DNA of 64,000 nucleotides. Source: Nitzschia sp. DOCU1. Its lineage: Eukaryota > Bacillariophyta > Bacillariophyceae > Bacillariales > Bacillariaceae. The translations under genes and the position numbers were made by a program. This document shows positions 18,904 to 37,676 of this stretch, one piece after another (within the stretch, counting starts at the first letter, position 1; each line of letters starts with the position of its first letter). The notes below the pieces were generated by a model. It made no database searches, was not told where the DNA came from, and saw only the letters and a program-made list of their open reading frames with translations. The stretch is taken from the NCBI GenBank assembly GCA_951394045.1, contig OX595989.1:2418001-2482000 (forward strand), in the 5' to 3' direction.

Positions 18904-19056
18904 GGAAAAGACCGCAAAAAGGGCGAGAAGGGGGACCGAAAGGAACCCTGTAAGCATTGCGGCAGGTTCCATCCGGCCCCTGACGACAAGTGTTGGAGTC
19001 TCCCTGGCAATGCCAAAGACCGTCCGAACAAGCGTCCGAGAGGCAACGGTGAGAAC

Positions 19057-21450
19057 ATGTTTTCGGCGCTCCAAATGGAGACGGTCGTCAAAGCCCTCGC
19101 CAAGAAACAGTCTAAGAAAGACAAAGGTAAAGAAAGAACCAAAAGGCAAGTAAGCTTCCAGCTGCACAAACAGGCAGATAGTAGCAGTAATGAAAGTAGC
19201 GATTCTGATAGCGACTACATGGACTACAATAGCGAAAATGAGCATAGTTTTGCTATTCGAACGTCACGCCCTGGAATAGAGCCGAATAGGGAAATTGCCA
19301 GGCGGCTAACTACAGAAATAGTCGTCGAAGCTTTAAATCCTAGAGGTGAATCCTACGTCCTTAGAACTCTTCTAGATACGGGTACTAGTCGTTCCATCGT
19401 TCTTAAGAACTTTGTGACGCTTAGCCAGCTCGTTCCTACTGGAAAACGAGTTACTACTTGGACGACTATGGGCGGCAAATTCAAGACGGACAAAGTCGCA
19501 AAGATACGCTTCAGAATCCCCGAACTCTCGACTAGCAAGGAAATTCATTGGCCATGTCACGTCGACGAGCATACAGATCGCGAAGATTCACCCTACGACC
19601 TGATTCTAGGACTTGACCTATTAGCCGAATTGAAGTTTGTACTCGATTTTGAGAAACGAACGGTTCGATGGGGCGATAGCGAAGTCGAGATGAAGGAACG
19701 TGGTGTTGTGACGGATCCAGAGGCCCTACAGCTTCTGTACGAGATGTCTCAAGACGCCCCCGTTATCCAAGCGGCGGAAGAACGACAAGCTAAGATCCTT
19801 GACGCCGACTACTCCAAAGTCGAGATGGAAGAGTTCGTTGACTCACTCGACTACCTAACTAAGGAGCAACGAGCGGAGCTACTAGCCGAACTGAAGCAGC
19901 ACCCCACACTATTCGGTGGAGGATTAGGTAAACTTAAAATAGATCCAATTCGTCTAGAGTTAAAAGAAGGAGCAAAGCCGTATCATGCAAAGCCATTCGG
20001 CATTCCTCATGCGTACGAACAAACGACGCGAAAAGAGATCGAACGATTCGAAAAACTTGGAATCTGGAAGCGTGTCAACCAATCCACATGGACGGCCGGC
20101 ACGTTCATTCAACCGAAGAAAACGGGCGATGTGCGCGTACTTACGGATTTTCGGAAACTCAACGAATATCTTGTGCGCAAGCCGCACCCACTGCCAAAGA
20201 TCAATGAGTTATTGCAAAAACTCCAGGGCTTTAAATGGGCAACGGCTATTGACCTCAGTATGGGCTATTACCACATTCCAATGGATAAGTACAGCCAAGG
20301 CCTCCTTGGTACTGTAATGCCGTGGGGCTTATATCAGTACCAGGTGCTGCCGATGGGTATATCCAATGCCCCTGATATTTTCCAAAGTATCATGATGCGT
20401 CTCCTTGGTGACCTGGAGTACGTACAAGTGTACATGGACGATATCTTGATAACGAGCAAAGGCACATTTAGCGACCACGTCGCCAAGCTCAAAGAGGTCC
20501 TCGCACGACTCGAACAAGCCGGTTTCCGCGCTAACGTCCGCAAATGCAAATGCAAATTTGCTGCCGACCGCGTTGAGTACCTCGGCTACGAGATCTCCCG
20601 TGACGGTATCCATCCCCAACCTAAGAAAGTGGAAGCGATACTAAAGATGCAGCCGCCGCGAACGAAGCGACAACTGAGACGTTTCTTAGGCATGGTAAAT
20701 TACTACCGTGATATGTGGCGGAAGCGATCGCACATACTAGCGCCGCTAACGGCGTTGTGTTCCAAGTCAGTCCCGTGGAAATGGACTCCCGAATGTAATG
20801 AATCATTCGAATCGATTAAGCGAGCAGTAGCGCGAGAGACGCTGTTGAACTTCCCCGACTTCAATAAAGAATTCCACATATATACGGATGCTAGCGATTA
20901 TCAATTGGGCGCCGTAATTATGCAAGATGGCAAGCCATTGGCGTTCTATAGTCGGAAGTTGAACTCCGCCCAGAAGAATTATACGACAGGCGAACAGGAA
21001 CTGCTAAGTATAGTTGAAACGCTTAAGGAATTTAGGAATATTCTCCTTGGTCAAAAGCTGGTAGTACACACGGACCACCTAAATATTCTGTACAACAAGA
21101 TGCCGAGTTCCCGAGTGGTTCGCTGGCGTCTCCTGTTGGAAGAGTACGGTGCTAAGTTCGTGCATGTCAAAGGCGAAGACAACGTAGTCGCGGACACACT
21201 GTCGCGACACCCGAATAGTGACCCAGACGACGAGTCAGCAGAGGATGTTCCCATTGGGAAACAAATGTCGTACTGTATGGCGCATCACCCAATTGATGAC
21301 GACGACTACGAGATCTCCTATGCAGACCTCGTGACCGCGGAAGATATCGCGGCCGAAGAAGGATTCGCACTGAGTCCGAAGGTAGTAGCCTACTACCAAA
21401 ACAAAGACCTCGATCTAATGCGAAAAGCCAGACGAGCTCCCTCCATCTAG
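19057..21450 (+). CDS. Gypsy pol, protease-RT-RNase H part (in frame with gag)
   Basis: The reading frame continues from gag through 18904-19056 without another stop, so 19057 is only the first ATG after the TGA. Domains in order: aspartic protease with LLDTGTSRSIV (Asp at 19375), reverse transcriptase with QPKKTGDVRVLTDFRKLN and the catalytic YMDD (20431-20442), then RNase H with IYTDASDYQLGAV, TGEQELLSIV and a DNVVADTLSRHP segment. It ends after APSI at a TAG supplied by the first bases of the nested DNA transposon. The integrase part resumes at 32010. Removing the transposon together with one AT gives APSMSKYTK without a stop. Confidence 0.92.
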   Translation: MFSALQMETVVKALAKKQSKKDKGKERTKRQVSFQLHKQADSSSNESSDSDSDYMDYNSENEHSFAIRTSRPGIEPNREIARRLTTEIVVEALNPRGESYVLRTLLDTGTSRSIVLKNFVTLSQLVPTGKRVTTWTTMGGKFKTDKVAKIRFRIPELSTSKEIHWPCHVDEHTDREDSPYDLILGLDLLAELKFVLDFEKRTVRWGDSEVEMKERGVVTDPEALQLLYEMSQDAPVIQAAEERQAKILDADYSKVEMEEFVDSLDYLTKEQRAELLAELKQHPTLFGGGLGKLKIDPIRLELKEGAKPYHAKPFGIPHAYEQTTRKEIERFEKLGIWKRVNQSTWTAGTFIQPKKTGDVRVLTDFRKLNEYLVRKPHPLPKINELLQKLQGFKWATAIDLSMGYYHIPMDKYSQGLLGTVMPWGLYQYQVLPMGISNAPDIFQSIMMRLLGDLEYVQVYMDDILITSKGTFSDHVAKLKEVLARLEQAGFRANVRKCKCKFAADRVEYLGYEISRDGIHPQPKKVEAILKMQPPRTKRQLRRFLGMVNYYRDMWRKRSHILAPLTALCSKSVPWKWTPECNESFESIKRAVARETLLNFPDFNKEFHIYTDASDYQLGAVIMQDGKPLAFYSRKLNSAQKNYTTGEQELLSIVETLKEFRNILLGQKLVVHTDHLNILYNKMPSSRVVRWRLLLEEYGAKFVHVKGEDNVVADTLSRHPNSDPDDESAEDVPIGKQMSYCMAHHPIDDDDYEISYADLVTAEDIAAEEGFALSPKVVAYYQNKDLDLMRKARRAPSI

Positions 21451-21457
21451 ACCCCTG
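21447..21457 (+). repeat. Left terminal inverted repeat
   Basis: CTAGACCCCTG. It matches the right end in reverse complement except for A versus G at base 5. Its TAG provides the premature stop of gypsy pol. Confidence 0.8.
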
Positions 21458-22439
21458 ATAAAAGCCCCCGCCTTGCCCCAGCCATAATTTCCCCCAAATA
21501 CAGCCTAAGGACCCCCAATACTGTCTTATTGCGCCCCTCCATGCCAGCAAGTGCATTCCTTAGGGTAACTGCACTATTGCCCATCGGGATGCATCTATAT
21601 TCTCCCATGCCAATATTTAGACTGGTAGTGCCCTTCATACACTGCCTGTGCCCTACTTAAACTGTAAACGTTCTCCATAAACTACAAATACCAGTGATAA
21701 ATTGTCATTACATTTATATAGTGGAAACCCTCTAAATAAACTCAATATAGCCTGTACACTCCACTGAAAATCCTGGAAACTCAGAAACTTCAACTTGAAC
21801 TTAGGGCAGGCAATTTATTTACAGAAAAATCAATTATGAAAAGAGAACACTACCTATACTCTATTCGAGATGCATTTGTAAATGGATATCCATTCTACAC
21901 AAGTGTAAGTAGCAATTGTACACCTTCCTCGAGTTCTCATTCTGCACCCACGGAGGATAATTGTAGCACCCACATGGGAATGTTAGGAGAAACTTTTCAC
22001 TCCCAAAATTCTTCTACCAGTTCCCAGATACCACTTTTACTGTACATTCACTGCATATATACCCAGGCAGCAGCTGCAACACTATGGGGCTGCATCCATC
22101 TTCTTTCACCCCAATGAAAAAGTAGGGGTGCACACTTTGCATAAGTTGTCTTGCAGCTCCCAACACCCCACTTCCCTGGCATGTGGTCACCATCCTTCGA
22201 GACCATGCCATTGACCCCTATTGCTCAGAGGCCAGTTTCTTCTGCCACAGTACAACTTCTCCGTAGCATTTTTGTGTAGAAACTCCTGAACAAGCGCCCA
22301 CTTGCAAGTTTCCCACCCATATGGCTACTGAGAAGTTGTACCACCAAGCAATCCACACTGCAACTAATGACAGGGGCCGGGAAAAGCAACAACATTCCCA
22401 CCGAAAGCAATTGTTTGAGCTGATCTTGCTGTTACTACC
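21458..22439. other. Left subterminal non-coding region of the DNA transposon
   Basis: About 0.98 kb without a convincing gene. C-rich runs (CCCCC or CCCC in several places up to 21545) give way to AT-rich sequence. Short motifs of the form TAAACT recur at about 21657-21740 and again, same orientation, in the right end at about 31900-31930. CACTA-type elements use such subterminal repeats as transposase binding sites; that role is inferred. Confidence 0.5.
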
Positions 22440-25400
22440 ATGCCAAAGCATCGCAACCACATTAGAAACCACATTGATTCCCTGGCAACGACTGCAGTGA
22501 TCAATATGGGGGGAGTGCCAGGCCTCTTGCGTTCATTTTCCCCCATCAAGCCCACCGAAAGAGCTGCAATTTCCTCCAAGGCTGCAAGAACCAAGGAATC
22601 ATTGCGGCTTCTTCCTGCCCCAACTGATCCTTCCTCTGTGGAAAATAATATGAAGTCAATTGAACAATTTACTGTATCTGGTCAGACTATTCATTTGGGT
22701 GAAGCTGCTTCTCGGGGAGAAGTAGGAGAAGAAGAAGATGGAGGAAAAAGCAAGAAGATTGCAGCCATGCCTCCGAAGAATGCACATCACCTCATCACAG
22801 AGGGCCTCAATTTACATCTCCTTGAGGACCGTCCAAAACGCATGGTGGAGTCAACAACTAGCAAGATTGCTACATTCAAACACCTGGACAGGATGGAATA
22901 CCATCCTTCCAATGCAATGTATGTCAGTATGATAATGTTATTCTCTCGGAAAAGAAGAGCACATTTCTTTGAGCAGGGGACTTATTTCTTGCACGCCTTT
23001 GCAGAAGAAATGCAATGCACCTTCACTCGTCTGGTATACCTGCGATCCTGGGTTGCATTTGCTAGTAGTGGCAACTGCTACAAGATAGAGTATAGGAGAC
23101 TCTCATCTTCGGTGGCAGAGCTTGATCCCAAATTGAAAACAAACTTCCATCGAGCCCACGGAATGTTAGAATATATTCTAAGGCAGATGGACCGAGATCA
23201 TTTGGAGCTGCCTTATGACCAGGAACAGCAGTTTCACAAGAAGTTTAGTCAAACTATTGGTAAGTTTCAAATTGTTGCTCCCCGTATTTCATATTCTACT
23301 TTCTAATTCTTTGCTTTTGTCCAGTTAAAACTAGACGACACTACACAAAGGAACTTTCCAAAAAGGAACAGAGTCGTCCCAAAGCATCAAAAGACCCCTC
23401 TCCTGATAATGACGCGACCACAGCTGAAGCCAAAGAACTTGCTGAAAAGTACGGAGAGTTGGAGGCCAGCTCCAAATCCTCAGCAGCCCGGAACATCCGA
23501 TTGAACGACTACATGGCACTCAATTCCATACTTGGTCGTCTGGTCACCTTCCTTCGTGCATTCCAGCCTTGCCTCTCTGTTGTTGTATTCATTTTTTCCA
23601 GAGTCGTTACCGGCAATATGAAGAAATGCCCCAACTTTTACGAGAAACTCTTCTTGGTGATCTTCAGTCGGTGTTCCACCAAGCGCATGATGTTCGAAGG
23701 GGCACAAACTCTTCTCTATACTTTCTATAGTATTCAAAGAATCCAAGACAACATTCATTTGCCCGAAGGTTGGCTCGTCAACCCAGACCGTTGCCTACCT
23801 GATGCAGAGGAGCTTGCCCAAAACACATCAAAAATGCGGTACCAGGAAGAAATGCTTGCAACCTTTCACAAGGCATTTGGTGGCAAGAGCCGTTTCCCCA
23901 AGTGCCCATCCGATGATCAGAAGCTGATTGGAATGCGGGTGATGGTTTTTGTCGAGCTGACAAAGCTTGAGGATGCAACTGTTGCTGGACAAAAGAGGAA
24001 AAAGTTTCAGAGCAAAACAGCAACGTATCGGAATGTTAGTACCCCTGTTGAAGACATGCAGCAAGATCTTGCTCGCTGTCACTCTTCCATGCCCAAACCC
24101 TCGGCAAAGGCCATGGAGTCAATGAAAAACTCACGGTCACTTTTGGATGGGCCACTGGCAAAAGAACTGCCTCAATTGATCCGGGGAGCCAATGAACTGC
24201 CAAGTGCTAATCCACTTCCAAACAAAGAGCCCGTAGCTTTGGAATTGCTTATTCACCAAAATGCCACATGCAATGATATCGAGTCCCTCTGTATTGCAAC
24301 CCTTGATGAATGTCGAAGCTTGGATTCAAGATTGATCCTCGAATTTGGTGACTACACTCTTGTGCTCCGTCATCCTCCCCTGGATTTTTATTTGACTTGG
24401 GGATTGCACCGTGTCTTCCATCATTACGAAAACCTTGGCCCAGTTCCATATGAGAAGCGTCTGCCAATCATTCGGGACAAGCCAATACTGTCCATTCCGG
24501 ACACTGGAGGCTTCCATAAAAGCCCAGATGTATCATTTGCTGTTGTCCGACCAGGAAATGACATCTTCAACGAGTCCTTTACACCTGAGGTCTTCAAGGC
24601 GGATCATGTTCGCATTATCAAGTTTATTATGCGTCATGGCAAGGCTGATGCAACACGGTCTGGTGGCTGGCGATTTGAATTTGGGTGTGCGGGAAATTCC
24701 TTCGAGAAGGATGTTAACAACTACATCCGACCACGTACATTGGTGGGATTCAGGGTATTTCTGGAAGATGATGGCGACATTGTATTAGAGTGGCTGGGCC
24801 GCATGATGAGTGCAATGTCTCGCTGCATGGGGAGACTGACATCAGATCTTGGCAAGCCGAAGTATCTAAACTACCGTCGGTACAGAGAGTATGCATTGGA
24901 GATGGCAAAGAAGTGCTTTGCTCAAGATTGGGAAATGGAGCACCTGGGTGTACAACTACTAAACGAAACGGATGGACAGACTGGCTTTGGTCATGAGGAT
25001 GGCCAGAATGACCCCCGTGCATCGACTGACCGTTGCTGTTGTGTGGTAAGTGGGTGCTAGCCGATTGATCAATGTGACAGGATTCTAAGTCTTCGTGTTG
25101 TTGTCTGTATGCCACAGGCCATGAAGCTTGTTGATAACAATGGAAGTATATACTCCCTCAAATTGATTGGCTCATTTCGTCGAAAAATAGGAGACTATTA
25201 TTCGGTTGCCATGTCAAAGGTCGAAGGGATTCTTGCAAACGTGAAGACCCAAATTGCTGCTGTTGATCAGTGTTATCGCCGCCTGGCGGACCATCGTCAA
25301 GGGAGCATCCGCACTATGGAAGTCCCAACTTGGGCCAACATATCAGATATGTTTTTTGATGAGTACTCTGGTTGGCCGGAAGCAACAATGATTGGGAAGA

Positions 25401-26314
25401 ACAATGATATTCCTCATCAGTTCATTGAGTTGCTTACAGGTCCACGACATCTCTGGTCTTCAACAGCCTACAGTGCAATCTACCGCATGTCACCATTCAT
25501 GACTGAACGAGGGATGGTGGAGATGATGATTGTGGCAGGTTGGCAAGACAACTATCATCATTTCTATGAGGTTACACAGAGAATGCAGATGAACCAGCCA
25601 TGGTCCCCGGCATACGAGTTTGACCGAGTTGCTTATGATTGCTTTTGCTGTCCAGGGATGGAAGAAGGCCAATATCTGAATGGAGGACAAGACCCACGTT
25701 TTAGTCGATCACATGTCGCCTTTCGAAGTATCTTCGGGAAATACGATGACCCAGAAGACAGTCCCCAGAGACAAAAACTATCGGCACTTGTTGACATTAT
25801 TCTTGAGGGATGCAATTGGCTGAACCAATTCATTGAAGCAGGCAATCGACTGGGATACACCGAAGTGAAGGAATTTTACTCAACAACAAAGAAGAAAATG
25901 ACCGATGTGGGACCATGTCAGCTAGCAGAATTCCGTCTGATGATCATCTTCAACGGTCTTGCAATGTTGCTTGTGCGTCTGCATTCAAGTGCTTCCCTCT
26001 GCAGTCTCTGTCAACCCCTTCCTGGGTGCGGATCCTGGGACCATCTGATTGAACAGGGAATCCCTCCTGAAAGGATTCCTGATGTTTTGGAAGATTTGCA
26101 ACGTGAGCTTTCAGCTGTGGTCAAGAGGGAAATCTGCCATGATGAACTGGAGACTGCACTTTGTGAGTCCAAGCCAAACCGCTTGCTACAGAAGAAGGAC
26201 ATCATTGTCAAAGGACAGTCGATTTTTGATTGGGACTTGGAGGGACGGTCACGCATGAAAGCATTTGGCAGGGTTGAGTGGGAGCCGGTGAAAATATTAT
26301 TCAAGAAATTCTAG
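22440..26314 (+). CDS. 1245-residue unknown protein carried by the DNA transposon
   Basis: Three exons, 22440-23259, 23325-25045 and 25118-26314, are joined in frame by introns of 65 nt (GTAAGT, CCAG) and 72 nt (GTAAGT, CACAG). I do not recognise the family. Seen: an N-terminal disordered, Lys-rich segment; a helical region with Arg/Tyr-rich HFFEQGTYFLHAFAEEM; a region with NMKKCPNFYEKLF; a beta-rich centre (ILEFGDYTLVLRHPPLDFYL); and at about residues 827-840 the motif GFGHEDGQND, in which H830, D832 and N835 resemble the HxDxxN iron site of 2-oxoglutarate oxygenases. The second half has Trp/Tyr-rich segments and CSLCQPLPGC. No membrane helix is clear. It lies in the position of accessory genes of large DNA transposons, convergent with the transposase 35 bp away. 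Function unknown. Confidence 0.7.
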
Positions 26315-26349
26315 GTACTTTTGTAAGTTTGTTATTGCATTGTGATGGA

Positions 26350-29300
26350 TTACTTCCATCTATTTTCATCAAGGATGTTGAGTGCCCAAGACTTTCTGTC
26401 ATATGTCTCATCAACAACGTATTTGCGCTGCTCTTCTACACAGGTGGGTTCAGTCGGAATACATTCTCCTTTCTTTGTTTGGAAGTGTTCGAAGGCATAC
26501 ACGCATTGTAGTAAATGCTCCATTGGTATAACGGAGAGCTTGGGTAAGTGCGAATCAGGATGGAATGGCAATGACCACCTGGCACTTATGTTCGTCTCTT
26601 CCTTTCTTTCAGCAGCAGTTGTTGCTTTCGTTTTCCAGACAATGGCAAAGGGATTGCCCTCCACTTGATATAAGAGACAAACCTTGGCAACCCTGTAGTC
26701 CATGTCGTTGGCTCCAACATGACACCAGTCATAGTACTCGCCAAGTTTGTCGTAATGTTCGGCTGCCCGTACCAAGTGGTGACTGCCTTCTTCATTGATT
26801 TTGATACGTACTTCCTTGTAGATATCAAGTGTCAAGCGGGCATTGCCATGGTATGTGGAGACGACCTCTAGAAGATGAATGCTAAGCTGGTTCTCACATG
26901 TCTCTCCAGGTTGTTCCGATTCTTTTCCATATGAATCCAGGCACTGCAGTTGTTTGGTTCCTGTATGAAAGCGATAATGACATTCCTTTCTGGTGAATTC
27001 CCATTTACCCTTGTTTACAACTTTTGGCGGTTTTGCAATCTTGCCATCTTTGTTCATTATTCGGAGCGTGTTATCCAACATTAAAAAGTCACTGACTCGA
27101 TCCGCCGTTTGAACAATGAAGACTCGTTCCCCACACTTCCGTGCCGTCTTGCTGACAGACTTGGCCCATCTCTTCAGTCCTCTCTCACCTTTTGATGCAT
27201 CATAGTTCATTGGGCTACCATACTCTTGTGTATCACGAGCCAAATGGGCATGAGAATGGGCCTTGCATATTTTGAAGTCGCATGTCTGGTCACCACGATA
27301 TATGACTGAAGTCACATCAACCATGATCTCATTGACCACCCCTTGCATCCTGGAGAAGTTGCTCTGAAGCTTGTTCTCAAGCATATGGTGCTCGTGCACA
27401 ATGCCATAGAAGCAGAGTAGTTTGCCAATTACTTTCCTGAAAGTGGTGACATCAGTCAATATTGCTGATGTCTCACCACGATTATGGATGATGGGTCTGT
27501 CTTCATAATGTTTACAGCAATTCACCTCGATGGTAGGCTTGGGTCTTCTCTTCCATTTACGGTCATCAGTCCGATGGCGTAAATTTTGGTAAAGATGAAA
27601 GGCCACCCTCTGTTCACACGACCTTTCTTCTACTACCAGGTGACACAACAAAGAAAGATCAAGACTTTGTGCTGATTCACGGATGTCTTCATTGTCCTTT
27701 TGTCGAGTTGCCAGGTCCCAAACTGAGGAAATCAAATATTCAGTTTGTACTTCATCTAATGGACAATCTGGATTGACGACAAAGGCCAATCCCAGAAGGT
27801 TGAGATCTTTTGTGATTTCATTGATTGTCTTCTTTGTACGGGGGATTTGGATGTTAATTGGATTGTCATTTTTCTTCCCGTTGCTTGAACGGGCTTTTTC
27901 TGCAGCCTTTTCTGCAGCCACCTGTCTTCGCACATCCTTGAAAAAGTGTTTGTCCCCAAACTTGGGAAACCCGCACGAATCCTTACTTTCGCATTCACTG
28001 TACAGTTTCAGTTGACGCAGAAGACTAGCCTGGTAAATCCTCTCAAGTCTTTCAGTTCCAAGTGAAAGGTATAATGCATGCAGTAGCCCAATGCGCTCTG
28101 TTGATGTCAGCAAGGTACAGTTACTGAATCCGGGTGAAAATTTCCCACGAGGGAAATCATAGCGTCTGGATGATCGCTTTGCAAAATCCTCACGCATTAT
28201 CTTTTCAACTTGCTTTGCCTCACCTGGCTTCAAATGCCCAAACGCCACCTGTAAGACATAGTCGACAACACCAGAACAATGGTAGTGCATGGGATCATCA
28301 AGTGTGGCACGGTATATTCCATTTTTATTTGACCCAAATGAAATGGAATGCCAGGCATTCTTAATTGGATGGAGCGAGTATGTCTTTTCAAGGACATCCT
28401 TGGCAATGGCTGATCGTCGAGTGAGCAACTTCTGAAGTCTGGCACGGAGCAACTTGGTTTGACGGACTTCGGGTGACCGGGGGGTCCCATTGAGTGGTAA
28501 AGGGTACGTCTGTTCGACAACAATAGAACCTTTATCATCCCCCTGCTCAATGATCTTGAGAAGTTGCTTGACTATTGTCACATCAAGGTCGTGACATATG
28601 TGGTCGTGGGAAAAAACATCTGCATTCATGAATGATGTCATACAGGAGCGGTGAAGCCGAGCAGCTCCAGATCCATTGTTTGCTTTCCTAGCACAGTGCT
28701 TATCTTGTGATTCTTGGTCACCCATGAGATAGGCTACTTCCAAAATGAGCCGAACATTTACCCTTGAGCCAAAAAGAGTTACATCTCTCAGCAAGGGTGG
28801 TTGCCTCTGGAGAGTTGCCACGTCTGAAAGAATAGCGGAGATGCATTCATGGTATCGCTTCAGGTTTGTAGTCCCATCATCCTTTGGATGAGTGTAACTT
28901 GGGACAAATCCCAGGTGGCGCCAGGCATCATCCTTCTCTCTTACGCTCTGCCTCAAAGTTGCAAGTGTGAACATCATTGGTTCAAGGGTGTATGCACCTT
29001 CCATTGCACCCACACCTGTCTTATCAATGTAGAAGATTAATGGTGTCAACCAGTTGAAGTAAGTTGTGTTGGTGGCCGGGTCTGTATAAACTGCATTTTG
29101 ATAACCAATCTTCTTCTCATACGTATCCTTATACCATTTTGCACCAAGTACCTCTTCCAAACCCTCGTGTTCAGGTGGAATGTATTGATGAAATCTGATG
29201 TTTGGTTCGGAATTGACAACAGCATGCTCTATTTTCTGAAAATACAGGGATGATAGAAGATCTTTCAGTTGGTCAAGTAGACTATACTTGGGTACAAGAA

Positions 29301-29934
29301 GTTTAGACTCGGTAAGCAGAAGAGCTGCTCTCAGATGGGGTACTTTCTTCCGAAGCGACTCCATGAAGTTCTGACGAGATGGCACCTTCAGAATGTTAAA
29401 TCCGTTTGCCGCATGCTTCTTCAAAATTTGCAAAAAGTCGTCAAGAAAGCCGATGGAGGTACCAGCACGGAAACATGCTTGGATCATGTCAGCCATTGCA
29501 TGATCAGTAACCGAGAACTGGGTATTAGGAAGCCCCTCAGCCTCCTTGTCTGCCACAACCAGAATTGGCTGAAGATGGTTTAGGTCTGCATTGGTGGGAA
29601 TGTCGTACTGGTTGGCTAGATCGTGTTGTGTGGTTTCTTGGCATTCTTCTCCGTTCTGGGTGTGGTTATTGTCTTCTTCCTCAGACAAGTCTGCAAGCAC
29701 TTTGTCAGTATTCAGCAAAGTCACGAGTGTGGTGGGATCAATGGGAGTGGCGTTGTCATATGAGACTTGCACCAATACAGGATCATTGCAAGAAGAACGT
29801 TCCGGAGCATTGACTGTATCTGCTGCAACCGAATTCAAGCTTGAAACACAAATTTGACCATGGCGGCGAGCAATCTTGGATAACCCTGTTTCGTAGGCAG
29901 ATGGAATACCATATCGCCATTTGCGTATGGTCAT
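26350..29934 (-). CDS. Transposase of the Plavaka/KDZ-CACTA type
   Basis: The product has 1194 residues from MTIRKWRYG; the frame is open 27 codons further upstream, but that extension is hydrophobic and unlikely in a nuclear protein. Features consistent with the KDZ/CACTA RNase-H-fold transposases, by recollection of the family: IFYIDKTGVGAMEG (first acid, about D304) followed by an EPMMFTLATL and DDAWRHLGFVP block, then LMGDQESQDKHC with Cys/His residues and HRSC (second acid, about D406), and DDPMHYHCSGVVDYV (about 546-560). The C-terminal half contains RGLKRWAKSVSKTARKCGERVF and a CX-rich HYRFHTGTKQLQC segment. It would cut and join the inverted-repeat ends. The uninterrupted frame suggests it is or was recently functional. 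Exact family is less certain than its being a transposase. Confidence 0.65.
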   Translation of the reverse strand: MTIRKWRYGIPSAYETGLSKIARRHGQICVSSLNSVAADTVNAPERSSCNDPVLVQVSYDNATPIDPTTLVTLLNTDKVLADLSEEEDNNHTQNGEECQETTQHDLANQYDIPTNADLNHLQPILVVADKEAEGLPNTQFSVTDHAMADMIQACFRAGTSIGFLDDFLQILKKHAANGFNILKVPSRQNFMESLRKKVPHLRAALLLTESKLLVPKYSLLDQLKDLLSSLYFQKIEHAVVNSEPNIRFHQYIPPEHEGLEEVLGAKWYKDTYEKKIGYQNAVYTDPATNTTYFNWLTPLIFYIDKTGVGAMEGAYTLEPMMFTLATLRQSVREKDDAWRHLGFVPSYTHPKDDGTTNLKRYHECISAILSDVATLQRQPPLLRDVTLFGSRVNVRLILEVAYLMGDQESQDKHCARKANNGSGAARLHRSCMTSFMNADVFSHDHICHDLDVTIVKQLLKIIEQGDDKGSIVVEQTYPLPLNGTPRSPEVRQTKLLRARLQKLLTRRSAIAKDVLEKTYSLHPIKNAWHSISFGSNKNGIYRATLDDPMHYHCSGVVDYVLQVAFGHLKPGEAKQVEKIMREDFAKRSSRRYDFPRGKFSPGFSNCTLLTSTERIGLLHALYLSLGTERLERIYQASLLRQLKLYSECESKDSCGFPKFGDKHFFKDVRRQVAAEKAAEKARSSNGKKNDNPINIQIPRTKKTINEITKDLNLLGLAFVVNPDCPLDEVQTEYLISSVWDLATRQKDNEDIRESAQSLDLSLLCHLVVEERSCEQRVAFHLYQNLRHRTDDRKWKRRPKPTIEVNCCKHYEDRPIIHNRGETSAILTDVTTFRKVIGKLLCFYGIVHEHHMLENKLQSNFSRMQGVVNEIMVDVTSVIYRGDQTCDFKICKAHSHAHLARDTQEYGSPMNYDASKGERGLKRWAKSVSKTARKCGERVFIVQTADRVSDFLMLDNTLRIMNKDGKIAKPPKVVNKGKWEFTRKECHYRFHTGTKQLQCLDSYGKESEQPGETCENQLSIHLLEVVSTYHGNARLTLDIYKEVRIKINEEGSHHLVRAAEHYDKLGEYYDWCHVGANDMDYRVAKVCLLYQVEGNPFAIVWKTKATTAAERKEETNISARWSLPFHPDSHLPKLSVIPMEHLLQCVYAFEHFQTKKGECIPTEPTCVEEQRKYVVDETYDRKSWALNILDENRWK

Positions 29935-30362
29935 GGTTGAGTGATGGCAGAGGTATAAAATAGAATGCCAAGACAATAGGTAAGCAAAAAAGATTGCCCA
30001 AAAGAGAGATGGCATATTGGCTTACAACTTTGTTCCAGGTCGTGCCAGTTTACCAGGAGATTTTGAAATTTAACCTGCCTATTTAGAAATGGAGGGGAGG
30101 GATGGTGCAATTGAATTTTGAACTGATAGACAGCAATTGGGCTGCAAGAGTTTGACGAGAGGGGCTGGGGTCTTGTGGCATTGGGTTGCTGATGGTGGGA
30201 TGGATTCAAAACTATACATTGAGGAAAAATGTATTGGGAAGGCCGGCGTGAAAATTGAGGGGAGAGTATGAGTGTGTTGGGGGGCAGGCGTGTCTGAACG
30301 GAAAAAAGTAATTTGAATCGAGATTGCAAGTCAAATTTGCATGAACAGGTTCTCGACATAAA

Positions 30363-31632
30363 TTGAAAATGAATGAAAATAATCCAAATCAACAACTGGA
30401 AGTGCAAGATGCGGACCTTGCCATCCTGAAGAGGTGGGTAAGAGAAGAGCTCTTTGATGAAGTGAAAATTGTGTACAATGCTAGTGAATTGGAGGTTGAA
30501 AAAGATTTGTATTGGATGTTCATCAAAGCGTGCAAGGACAAATTGCTGGGTTTGAAAGGATTGCCTGGTGAAGCAAACAAACAGCTGCGGAAAATGTATG
30601 TCAACATGTTGTGGAGAGAGGCAAACAAACCAAAGGTCAACCTGGTGACAGATGGTATCTCTACCCGTAGGAGCACAGTGTATACGGCAATGTCAAATAA
30701 ATTTTCAGGTGAGAAGAGGATGAGGAGCATCAGATTGCAAGATTGAGGCAAAACTCATCAGTCTATTGGAATCACATGACAAAGAATTAGCAGATTTTTG
30801 TGCTTCAAACAATACTGTCTTTCCTTCCCTTGGAGCTCTCACAGACGGACCAAAACTGCCAACCATCTACTTTGTCTTCTATGATTGCTTTGTCAAGGCT
30901 TGCCTGGGGGAATCCAAGTGGAGGTGCATGTGCTTGGATGAAAGTACCGACTGGAAGCCTCTGGTTCCATTGACAGAGGAGGCATTTGCCACTGTTGCTC
31001 TTCGCAACAACTACTTTGCTTGGCTGCTGGAGGCAAAGGAAAAGTTGAAGGGTAATCTTGTTACTGACTACGACAAGCCTTCTCTAATCAAGAACAAGAG
31101 AAACATCAATGTTACTTTGGTGAAGCGTGAATTTGATGTCTTGGAAAACATGTACCCTGACAATGAGGACAAGCCTACAGTGGTGTTCAAGGAAGGGGAT
31201 GCTCTTTTCCCTGACATGCAGAAAGCCACTGCTCAGGCTCTGAAAGATCTGAGGGATTCCATTTCCCAAGATGAACGCACTAATTATGCTGAAGTACTCG
31301 AGGCCCTTGGGGAAGCAAACGCCACGGATGATACCAAGGAAAGGAACACAAAAAGGAGGAAGGTGATCAAAGGTTTACGACGTTACACCACCCCTAAGGA
31401 TGGAGAAGCTAAGTTCAAGGGGTGGTCTCCAAGGGCAGCAACAGATATGGTATGGTTACGGAATATGCTGAAGAAATGTGAAGGTAATATGACACTGTTT
31501 GGTCAAGCATATCGTCAGGTTTACAGAGAAAGGAATGAACCAAGTAGAAGAGAGGAAAAGAAGGATGGAAAAGTCCCAGAGGAGACTGTGAAGGAATTGT
31601 GGGGGATTGTTGTTGAACGGGTAGAAGTCTAA
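30363..31632 (+). CDS. 394-residue basic unknown protein of the DNA transposon
   Basis: Two exons, 30363-30708 and 30794-31632, give 394 residues if an 85-nt intron (GTGAGA donor, TTAGCAG acceptor) is removed; without it the first frame stops at 30746. The N-terminal 110 residues are helical and charged (ILKRWVREELFDEVKIVY, LLGLKGLPGEANKQLRKM). The C-terminal part is basic, with TKRRKVIKGLRR and ARG/LYS-rich RQVYRERNEPSRREEKK. No membrane segment or known enzyme motif is seen. By position it may be the DNA-binding accessory protein found in many two-gene CACTA elements (TnpA-like), which is inference. The two exons could instead be two separate frames broken by a frameshift. Confidence 0.55.
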
Positions 31633-31998
31633 TCTCTAGTGGTAAATTGGTTTGGTATGGACATTGAACTGCTAGCCTCCTCTTTTACTCCCTTGGAATA
31701 CAATTGTCATGATGGCATTTGATAGAGCATATAGTGCATTGCTGCTACTCAGAAAGCATGGCTTGTGGTATGAAGATCCGTATGTTGAGATTTGAAGTGG
31801 TGGGTTGCGTTTTGAACTGAGAGTGGCCGGCTTGACTGACTGCACGTGGGGGATTCTCAAATTGGTATCTGGTTCCATATATTCTAAATTAGGGACAGTA
31901 AACTGGTCTTTACCTGTATATAAACTGTGGGGCCAGGTTTATAAATTGATGCGTATGAATGGGGCAACCAATATAGGACCAAGCTCCGAGTGGTCAGC
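31633..31998. other. Right subterminal non-coding region of the DNA transposon
   Basis: G-rich on this strand (GTGGTGGG, GTGGGGGA, TGTGGGGCC), mirroring the C-rich left end, with TAAACTG-like motifs at about 31898 and 31920. No gene is visible. Confidence 0.5.
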
Positions 31999-32009
31999 CA
32001 GGGGCCTAG
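31999..32009 (-). repeat. Right terminal inverted repeat
   Basis: CAGGGGCCTAG, followed by AT and the resumed gypsy pol frame. Confidence 0.8.
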
Positions 32010-33715
<1,706 letters not shown>

Positions 33716-34092: not shown

Positions 34093-34807
34093 AGCTCATC
34101 TTTGAGCCTCGCCAAATATTACTCTACGACGGAACTACAGCCTTTAAGCTAGAAGGATATATACAAGTCCTAGTGGACCATACTATCTACTCTTTGGTCG
34201 GGTTTCATGCTCGATAAATAAGGACCTAGTAGAGGCTCGACTTGCTGTACGACCTCATTCTTGAGCTGCTGAAGTCTACAACTACTAGTACTATTAGGAC
34301 TGCTTCCTTGCTGGCGGCGATGCCGTGCTGCTTCGGCAAGCAATAGGACTTGCCGAAAACACAAGAACGGTACTAGACTACTACTGCAAACCTTGTTCCA
34401 AACTTTACAGACTGCCGCCGGCAACTACCGGTAGAACTCGAGCCAGCTACCCTAATTTCTTCAAGCTACCGGTTGCTCCAAATAAGGTGCAGGTGTGCTC
34501 ATGGATGGGTGGGCCGGCTCGTATCCAATCCGGGTGCGCCAGCTCGAAAAGTCCGGACCCTGTTTTCACGTGGAATGGACTACCACAGGCTACGAAGCAG
34601 CAGTCCGTAGCCTAAGCCGATTGATTCCTTCATTCCACCCCCCTCAAAGTTCGCTCGATGCCTCCATACACCTCACAATTCTCTTTCGGTATTGTCAGCA
34701 AACGATCACCGTCAACAAGTTGTAGTTGCATTGCTATTAGAGGAGGTATATTAACAGTCGTTGGTGAGGAAAGTGATGCTTTCTCTGTGTACTGCATAGT
34801 CCCGAAG
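34093..34807. other. Intergenic region before the HSF-like gene
   Basis: 715 bp without a convincing gene. Overlapping frames on both strands resemble no protein. The region must hold the promoter of the HSF-like gene. Confidence 0.5.
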
Positions 34808-37676
34808 ATGCGGCGAGCTTCCTATCACCACGATGACCCGAACAGCGTCGATGTTACCGAGGTGGATTTGGACCGTCACGTACAAAACCAAGAAGATCAG
34901 CAGCATGCATTGCAACATGCACCACATGGGTATTATGATCCCACCCCTTATCATTACTTGACAGTGCCTCAGCAGCCGCTGATAGATCATCACGTTCACC
35001 AGCAGCATCCACATCAGCACCATCAAGTTCCGCCCCACCACCACCAGCAACAGCTCACAATGACAGTCGATGCTCATCAACATCATCAGCGTCCCTTGGT
35101 GGATCCCGCATGGCATGCAAACGTTACCAACGATGCGTATCTTCACATGGATCCGACAGCTGTGGATTATCACTTGCACCATGCAGCACCAGCGGCACCT
35201 TTGGAGGACATGATGTTGCCTCCTCCACCTCAAGCGCCCATGATGGCGGCGCCTGCTGCTGCTTCGGTTGCTGCCCGAGCATCCACCCAGGCATTGTCGC
35301 TATCCAAGCGAAGATCTACTACTAGCCGGGCAAGAAAGAGAACCCCGAAAAGCAGCGTTGCCTCTCCGCGTAAAAAACGGGTCTCGTCTGCAGACGGCGG
35401 AGGTGGTCCCGGCAGCAACGACAATTATTTATCGCTGATTCATCAAATGCTCGAAAATGTGCAAAAGGACGGGAACCAACACATCGTCAGCTGGCAACCA
35501 CATGGCCGTGCCTTTCGCATTCACAACGAGACTCTCTTCATCGAGCATGTTATGCCCAGGTACTTCAAAGCAAAAATTGGAAGCTTTCGTCGCTGGTTGC
35601 GGGCCTGGGGCTTTGTGCGAATGACAGAGGGGAAGGACCGTGGATCCTGGTATCATAGGTACTTTGTTAGGGGCGTAACCTCGCTCTGCAAAAATATGAC
35701 CCGACAACAAATGGCGGATGCCATGCTGAACTGGCCACCATCGGGACATGTTCCGGATTTCTATAGTGCGGCAACCGGAAGTACGCTATCGGAACAGCTC
35801 CAGGAACACGAAGAGCAGACAGTACCATATGGTACACCAATTGCAACACAAATAAATCACGGCCAAGATCCTCTTGCCGCGAATCCAAAGCTATTGCGGG
35901 GCACAGTTTTGGAAGGTAAGATGGCGTTATCATGTTGGACGTGAATCTCAACTGCGGCCACCCTCTCACAGAGATTTGTAGATCTGAGGCAATTGTTGGA
36001 TGATGCCGAAACCGAAGGGCATACTCACATCGCTAGCTGGATGCCACATGGCCGAGCTTTTAAGATCCACAACAAGGCCCTTTTCCAGGGACTCATGGTC
36101 AGATACTTTCGAACAAACAAGATATCCCATTTGAATGATACACTACGTTTATGGGGATTTCGTCGCTTGAAAAAGAGTGTATCCGATAAGGGCGCCATGT
36201 TTCACATCAAATTTGTCAAAGGAGATCCTGCGCTAAGTCGGCATTTGACTCGGGTACACATGAAGGCCTGCATGGAAAATTGGCCTCCTCCTGAGGGGGA
36301 ACCAGATCTTTATATCCAACCAGCAGCGGCAGCCACCAATCCCGGCGGCATCCAGACTATACCGGGAGCGGCAGGATTACACCCAGCGCTCCACGGGGGG
36401 TATGCTCAGGCTGCGTATCCACGACCTCCGAATCTAGCTGCCAGGGAACAAGCGAGGGACAGCAGTCGTAGTAGTGGCGGCGACGGCACCTACATCAAGA
36501 AGCTACACGAAATGTTGGAGGACGCCGAGAAAGACGGCAACCAGCGAATTGTTAGCTGGATGCCTCATGGAAGAGCTTTTCGTGTCCACCAAGAAGATGA
36601 ATTCGTGGAGCAAATTATGCCAAAGTACTTCAAGGTGAGTCGTATCTGGTGTTGAACTAGAACGGATCCTACGATGACCTCTCATGACTTATTCCACTTT
36701 TGCAGGCTAAAATGAAGAGCTTTCTGCGATGGTGTCGGGCATGGGGCTTTGTCCGAATGACTGAGGGCCCGGACAGAGGAGCGTGGTATCATCGGTAAGC
36801 GCGTGCAGTCTCTGACATCATAGTATTGATATCATTTCTCATTTTCGTGTTGCCACCTGCAGGTACTTTGTGAGAGGCGTCACTTCACTTTCTCGGAACA
36901 TGACGCGTCAACAAATGCTCAAGGCCATGGAGGATTGGCTGCCCCCAGGGCATGTGCCCAACTTTTATGCATCTGGTACAGGCGAAGTCTTGTCGGAAAC
37001 GCGGCAAGAACCGTTAGAACCGCCCCCCAATGTAACGTGCAAGAACCCTAAGCAATTGCGAGGGACGGTTCCAGAGGATTTGAGGCAAATGTTGCTAGAA
37101 GCCGAATTGGAAGGCAATACAAGAATCGTTGGATGGCTGGAACATGGACGAGCCTTCAAGGTGTTTGACAAAGCGAGATTTTGCAAAGAAATTCTCCCAA
37201 GATATTTCAAGGCCACCAAGTACAGCTACTTTTCGGACGCATTACGAATGTGGGGTTGGCATCGACTAAAGCAAGAAGGAGAGTCGAAGAATGCGTACTA
37301 TCACCGTTTGTTCATTAGAGGGCAGCCTCAACTCACACGACATCTAACCAGGACGCAGATGAAGGCCAGCATGGCGCCATGGCCGCCTCTGGAGGGAGAG
37401 CCGGATTTATATGCTCCACCTCCTCCACCAAACCAAACCGACGCACAAGAAGGAAACAGCACAGGAGGCTTTCAAACGATAGACGAATCTCCGGCCGCCG
37501 CGATGTTGCCAGCCCCGGTAGGGCCCGCTGTAGATACTGCCCCCATCGAACCTACCACTGCCCCGGACGCGGATTTTGATACTGCGGTCATCCAACCTAC
37601 TGCTGCCCCGGACACTGAATTTGAAGATTCTTCTGAACTTAAGGACAGTAACATCCTTTGGCAAACAGCGGTGTAG
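34808..37676 (+). CDS. HSF-type DNA-binding protein with four tandem domains
   Basis: I read four exons: 34808-35915, 35982-36634, 36706-36794 and 36863-37676, with introns of 66, 71 and 68 nt, giving 887 residues. The first 200 residues are His/Gln-rich, followed by a basic nuclear-type segment (KRRSTTSRARKRTPKS). Four HSF-like winged-helix domains follow at about 205-315, 370-460, 538-650 and 690-790. They share IVSWQPHGRAFRIHN, VMPRYFKAK and WGFVRMTEG type blocks. Domains 1 and 3 resemble each other (VRGVTSL, NMTRQQM) as do 2 and 4 (EGEPDLY), so a two-domain unit was duplicated. HSF families are greatly expanded in diatoms; a canonical heat-shock factor has one such domain and a coiled coil, which is not seen here. 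Targets are unknown. The tail repeats a TTAPDADFDTAVIQPTAAPD-like motif. Confidence 0.85.

Follow-up and report, generated by a model that had tools for sequence, protein, structure and literature searches.

What has broken the pol reading frame of a gypsy retrotransposon in the diatom Nitzschia sp. DOCU1, and what do the genes carried by the intruding DNA encode? The frame lies in the window analysed here, a stretch of 64,000 nucleotides (C5:2418001-2482000) from a searched genome of 52 Mb in 63 contigs, and is read on the plus strand in two parts, 18904..21443 to the left of the insertion and 32013..33074 to the right. A preliminary description of the locus recognised, from the open frames, that a foreign DNA element of about 10.56 kb separates these parts, and this stands: the inserted DNA transposon measures 10,569 bp (21444..32012). 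Judged from sequence, it belongs to the Plavaka group and no new superfamily is needed for it. The transposon is young and possibly autonomous, and it encodes a transposase and two further proteins, of 1245 residues (cargo 1) and 394 residues (cargo 2). We infer that cargo 1 carries a divergent domain of the TET/FTO kind, resembling the 2-oxoglutarate (2OG)-Fe(II) oxygenases, on the basis of a structure match below formal significance and a conserved HxD motif. We give a probability of about one half to the joint reading of the locus as a young Plavaka-group transposon whose cargo 1 is a TET/FTO-like anti-silencing enzyme.

The boundaries were read from empty sites. Querying the genome with window positions 21200-32300 listed 38 gypsy places, at which the match to the right flank begins at 32013 and that to the left flank extends to 21443 with an overlap of 2 bp (one left match is short). 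In all 29 copies read (L004-L032) the flanks are joined without a gap, CTCCCTC running directly into TAAATAC in 28 of them and with a substitution in the other; therefore, the target-site duplication is TC (21442..21443 and 32013..32014) and the element spans 21444-32012. The preliminary description had set the ends at 21447 and 32009, with an AT duplication, CTAG termini and 11-bp inverted repeats paired at 10 of 11 positions, and had taken the rejoined pol peptide APSMSKYTK as firm evidence for them. The empty frame reads APSKYTK, both true ends lie 3 bp outside the positions given, and the element starts with CATCTAG. Its terminal inverted repeats comprise 14 bp, CATCTAG[A/G]CCCCTG, of which 13 are paired and one is mismatched: CATCTAGACCCCTG on the left (21444..21457, plus strand) and CATCTAGGCCCCTG, in minus-strand reading, on the right (31999..32012). 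A second copy (L003) bears out the right end: it lacks its left part and is 93% identical over 29594-32012, the similarity passing 32009 and ending at 32012. A copia-like gag and reverse transcriptase stretch, recognised by eye, directly adjoins this left-truncated copy (L003:1-1500; G000:C1:3140705-3142204). As first described, the subterminal zones are rich in C at the left and in G at the right, and TAAACT recurs. This motif, picked post hoc, has five occurrences in the outermost 400 bp at both ends against 0.58 expected, a count reached in 0/5000 order-1 simulations; three occurrences lie at the left (21658, 21678 and 21737, within 21658..21742) and two at the right (31899 and 31921, within 31899..31926), all on the plus strand.

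A second family has similar termini. Its transposase protein is 33% identical to that of the window element, and its copies on C3 and C8, 99.5% identical over 10,510 aligned bases, start with CATCTAGACCCC and end with CTCTAGATG (CATCTAG...CTAGATG). Read by eye, the flanks are TG/TG on C3 and TA/TA on C8; a third copy, on C11, is without its left end. Three insertions, including that of the window element, thus combine CATC..GATG ends with 2-bp duplications.

The predicted transposase is encoded on the minus strand (26350..29934, 1194 residues) within the open frame 26350-30021, its start being the methionine at 29934, picked by alignment to P0003, for which no relative was found among the viral contigs. 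It is the sole product of the element to exceed any Pfam cut-off, matching the Plavaka profile (PF18759) by the narrow margin of 27.5 bits against 26.3. In a six-frame search of the genome the same profile matched 10 places, 8 of them above the cut-off, with 30.2 bits for the window element. A database search, which scored only the 7992 candidates with most words in common, returned 14 relatives of 22-44% identity, one of them named a Plavaka transposase by its source. The putative catalytic residues D333, D435 and E946 (numbering of the open frame) are invariant in all 10 rows of the transposase alignment (A3), as are C460 and H579. According to Kojima 2025 (PMC12730594, cited throughout from excerpts of its text), the DDE triad of Plavaka transposases encloses, between its second D and its E, the motifs C(2)C and H(3-4)H. 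Here, the first cysteine of C(2)C is replaced by histidine in 8/10 rows and by serine in P0015, and is retained in P0016; no conserved second histidine of H(3-4)H was seen in the 10 rows.

The transposase had been likened to Plavaka and KDZ-CACTA enzymes, of which the Plavaka part holds and the KDZ part does not. Membership of KDZ (Kyakuja-Dileera-Zisupton) would need a duplication of 7-8 bp, compared with the 2 bp of the three insertions, and the excerpted source corrects an earlier placement of Plavaka near KDZ in favour of the CACTA/Transib side (CMCT). EnSpm/CACTA elements share CA..TG ends and a short duplication with the window element, but its terminal bases, CATCT and not CACTA, rule out membership, as they do for the second family. 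The window element fits the published description of the fungal PlavakaB elements, with their PF18759 transposase, duplication of 2 or 3 bp and CATCA..TGATG termini (PMC12730594, excerpts), apart from the fifth terminal base, which is T in both families here and A in PlavakaB. Some fungal PlavakaB elements also carry a TET/JBP oxygenase gene, according to the same excerpts. Differences lie in the host, a diatom, in the substituted C(2)C motif, in a cargo that is not recognisable as TET/JBP by sequence, and in the extra 394-residue protein. The preliminary description had proposed a new lineage from the AT duplication and CTAG ends, and since both are refuted by the empty sites, that argument falls. 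The weak Plavaka similarity, the histidine in C(2)C and a host outside the fungi could still be taken to favour a new superfamily of DNA transposons; we consider this very improbable, as the true ends and 2-bp duplications agree with PlavakaB save for one base and the PF18759 cut-off is passed at 8 of the 10 matching places.

When the genome was searched at protein level with each of the three products and the results, whose counts are lower bounds, were overlaid, at least 24 distinct transposase loci emerged (from 32 match rows). At no fewer than 11 of these, a cargo 1 match lies within 1 kb of the transposase and is always convergent with it; at nine of the 11, a cargo 2 match lies on the opposite side of the transposase, three of these matches being weak (E 9e-4). 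As the arrangement recurs at 11 loci, nine of them with cargo 2, the three-gene structure is a property of the element group and not a chance capture. No cargo 1 match was obtained by protein search at the remaining 13 transposase loci, of which two are fragments and eleven are more divergent (23-29% identity); a later profile search found cargo 1 remnants at the fragment C9:147898 (L059).

Both accessory genes lie on the plus strand, and their splicing was predicted from sequence alone. Cargo 2 has exons at 30369..30654 and 30734..31632; a 25-nt intron, giving a 412-residue model, was replaced by a 79-nt GT..AG intron (30655-30733), giving 394 residues. The genome search used the earlier, 412-residue model. 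The length first proposed for this protein is retained, but with an isoelectric point of 5.9 it is not basic, as had been stated. Its second exon has weak matches of unknown function in PHROG (best E 0.0044). Cargo 2 is a conserved predicted accessory beside the transposase, and one might guess that it binds the subterminal TAAACT repeats. Neither accessory protein had been given a function; for cargo 1 an oxygenase-like role is now possible.

Cargo 1 is predicted from three exons (22440..23259, 23325..25045 and 25118..26314), whose translation gives the 1245 residues originally reported. Exon 2 encodes most of the oxygenase-like domain, which takes in roughly residues 570-1000. The HxD motif (H830 and D832, 24992..25000) retains its histidine in 20 of 21 aligned rows and its aspartate likewise in 20, the rows being about 20-62% identical to P0001, and an arginine encoded by exon 3 (R868, also numbered R303), with a putative role in 2OG binding, is invariant in 21/21. 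No downstream metal-binding histidine is common to all aligned rows; the best column has 15/17. The protein also has a large helical C-terminal part. In the better of the structure models, 2OG oxygenases occupy all of the first seven places, followed by a gap from 6.0 to 3.5, with FTO first and tied with CcTet; TET2, CcTet and CMD1 are among the best structural rows of the cargo 1 models. These rankings are below formal significance, and Foldseek gave nothing at E<=0.001 against the PDB and viral structures.

Sequence profiles gave no assignment. Pfam, NCBIfam and PDB sequences yielded no match above cut-off for the cargo 1 family, hmmscan of its relatives and of 13 alignment members found no 2OG oxygenase family, P0001 has no match among the viral contigs, and Tet_JBP (PF12851) matches nowhere in the genome. 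PF20515 also had no match in the genome, which carries no weight since its control matched nowhere either. Below the Pfam cut-offs, matches to UPF0262, DUF2947, Med15_N, Clavanin, DUF3240 and TraF were not usable. The same holds for Rpc31 (E 6e-4; 20.3 bits where 30.2 are needed) and NOA36, both matching an acidic stretch of L068, and one PHROG match without assigned function (E 0.024) offered no usable clue.

Very divergent relatives of cargo 1, about 20% identical to P0001, occur at G000:C9:2523000-2525500 (L067) and G000:C16:1567400-1570200 (L071) and keep both HxD and the invariant arginine. Matches restricted to residues ~122-266 were seen at G000:C1:3182538 and C1:3614826, so that the N-terminal domain may also stand alone; at C1:3180161, a similar match, one to residues 324-407 is found nearby.

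Cargo 1 has a second bearer in this genome. Its relatives on C8, C4, C7, C3, C1 and C5 adjoin a different, recombinase-like gene, of which the pieces on C8 include HSLRRT...RHKDTATALGY, suggesting by eye a Crypton-like tyrosine recombinase (HxLRR...H...Y); two pieces of the gene had no match in Pfam. A DNA search with the C-terminal piece of the recombinase found six full-length matches at 99-100% identity, one partial match at 94% and two at 67-68%. A cargo 1 match lies 1.1-2.5 kb away at seven of these nine (the six full-length ones and C5:2793973). On the far side, all six full-length matches are accompanied by an Ulp1-type (C48) peptidase gene (22.7 bits for PF02902, above the cut-off of 20.7), which at one of them is in two separated pieces. 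The multi-copy element is represented by L079:1558-2610, L077:2-1522, L068:213-4088 and L078:145-2511 (G000:C8:913457-924000). In excerpts of PMC3212892, CryptonS elements are reported for oomycetes and for a single diatom, and some of them encode a C48 peptidase; the second bearer resembles them in its recombinase-like and C48 (Ulp1) peptidase genes and differs in carrying an oxygenase-like gene and in a recombinase recognised by eye, not by Pfam. The cargo 1 gene is thus, from its predicted products, common to a Plavaka element and an unrelated Crypton-like element. In an unrooted tree of 20 cargo 1 rows (P0024-P0026 were left out as short), both Crypton-borne rows fall in one supported clade of 17 rows with 5/6 of the Plavaka-borne rows. 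We claim no direction of transfer, since the tree lacks a root and contains two long rows, including that of the window.

How far do these observations favour an oxygenase over other functions? Several of them weigh against it: the first cargo 1 model shows no gap between oxygenases and unrelated rows, no structure match is significant, and the third metal ligand is missing from the alignment. Together with the helical C-terminal part and the position beside the transposase at 11 loci, as befits a partner in transposition, they could point to an ordinary Plavaka element whose 1245-residue protein serves as an accessory, either structural or for DNA binding, and has no oxygenase fold, HxD being structural. 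This we regard as doubtful, since a dedicated Plavaka subunit would not be expected also beside an unrelated recombinase-like gene, and the seven oxygenases that head the better model would be left aside. Alternatively, cargo 1 may have the oxygenase fold and be a pseudo-enzyme, or act on RNA or protein in the manner of FTO and not on DNA methylation. The rank of FTO and the lack of the distal histidine lend themselves to this, but the near-invariance of H and D across such divergent rows argues for metal binding, and TET2, CcTet and CMD1 also belong to the best rows; we judge it unlikely.

In the preferred reading of cargo 1 as an anti-silencing oxygenase, a DDE transposase would act on the CATC...GATG ends, seen with their 2-bp duplications in the insertions themselves. 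Cargo 1 would most likely oxidise a modified base, either in the DNA of the element or at the target, and, by analogy with fungal TET/JBP, counter silencing of the transposon by cytosine methylation. The 394-residue accessory might perhaps bind the subterminal repeats. DNA_methylase matches occur at seven places above cut-off in this genome, and Phaeodactylum that has lost the cytosine methyltransferase DNMT5a shows depleted methylation together with overexpression of young transposons (PMC9998398, excerpts). In fungi, TET/JBP genes are carried by eleven transposon lineages and are common to different superfamilies, with escape from silencing as a proposed role, untested there (PMC12730594, excerpts). 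Cargo 1 is comparable in its near-invariant HxD, in its best structural rows and in spanning unrelated transposon classes. It differs from TET/JBP in having no PF12851 match, no conserved downstream histidine and further N- and C-terminal regions, and in that one of its bearers is Crypton-like, a lineage outside the eleven of the excerpts. The sharing of cargo 1 with the Crypton-like element would parallel that of TET/JBP among fungal superfamilies. More tentatively, we propose that two mechanistically unrelated diatom transposons, Plavaka with its DDE transposase and the Crypton-like element with its putative tyrosine recombinase, carry an undescribed, strongly divergent group of TET/FTO-like DNA oxygenases that would erase host methylation from the element. 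Such an anti-silencing cargo may have evolved or been traded in stramenopiles in parallel to TET/JBP on fungal transposons, and the lack of the canonical distal histidine may reflect an altered metal site.

Elsewhere in the window, three adjoining open frames (34625-37676) contain HSF-type DNA-binding domains (PF00447, 57-75 bits) and form a local heat-shock-factor-like cluster. Silicic acid transporters gave 18 matches in the genome, every one above the Pfam cut-off. Diatoms are rich in both silicic acid transporters and HSF-type genes; such transporters also occur in some other protists.

The locus illustrates how misleading a clean reading frame of the host can be: the empty sites shifted each end by 3 bp and turned a supposed new lineage into a member of a known group. 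No paper on Plavaka elements or on TET-like transposon cargo in diatoms was among the matches listed in the open-licence literature, which is no proof of absence. The transposon itself adds a new but ordinary member to the Plavaka group; the part most worth following is the oxygenase-like cargo common to two transposition mechanisms. If cargo 1 is an oxygenase, it would represent a new branch of nucleic-acid oxygenases, given that its family has no match above cut-off in the databases searched, and transposon-borne anti-silencing enzymes would be a recurrent strategy that reaches diatoms and not a peculiarity of fungi.
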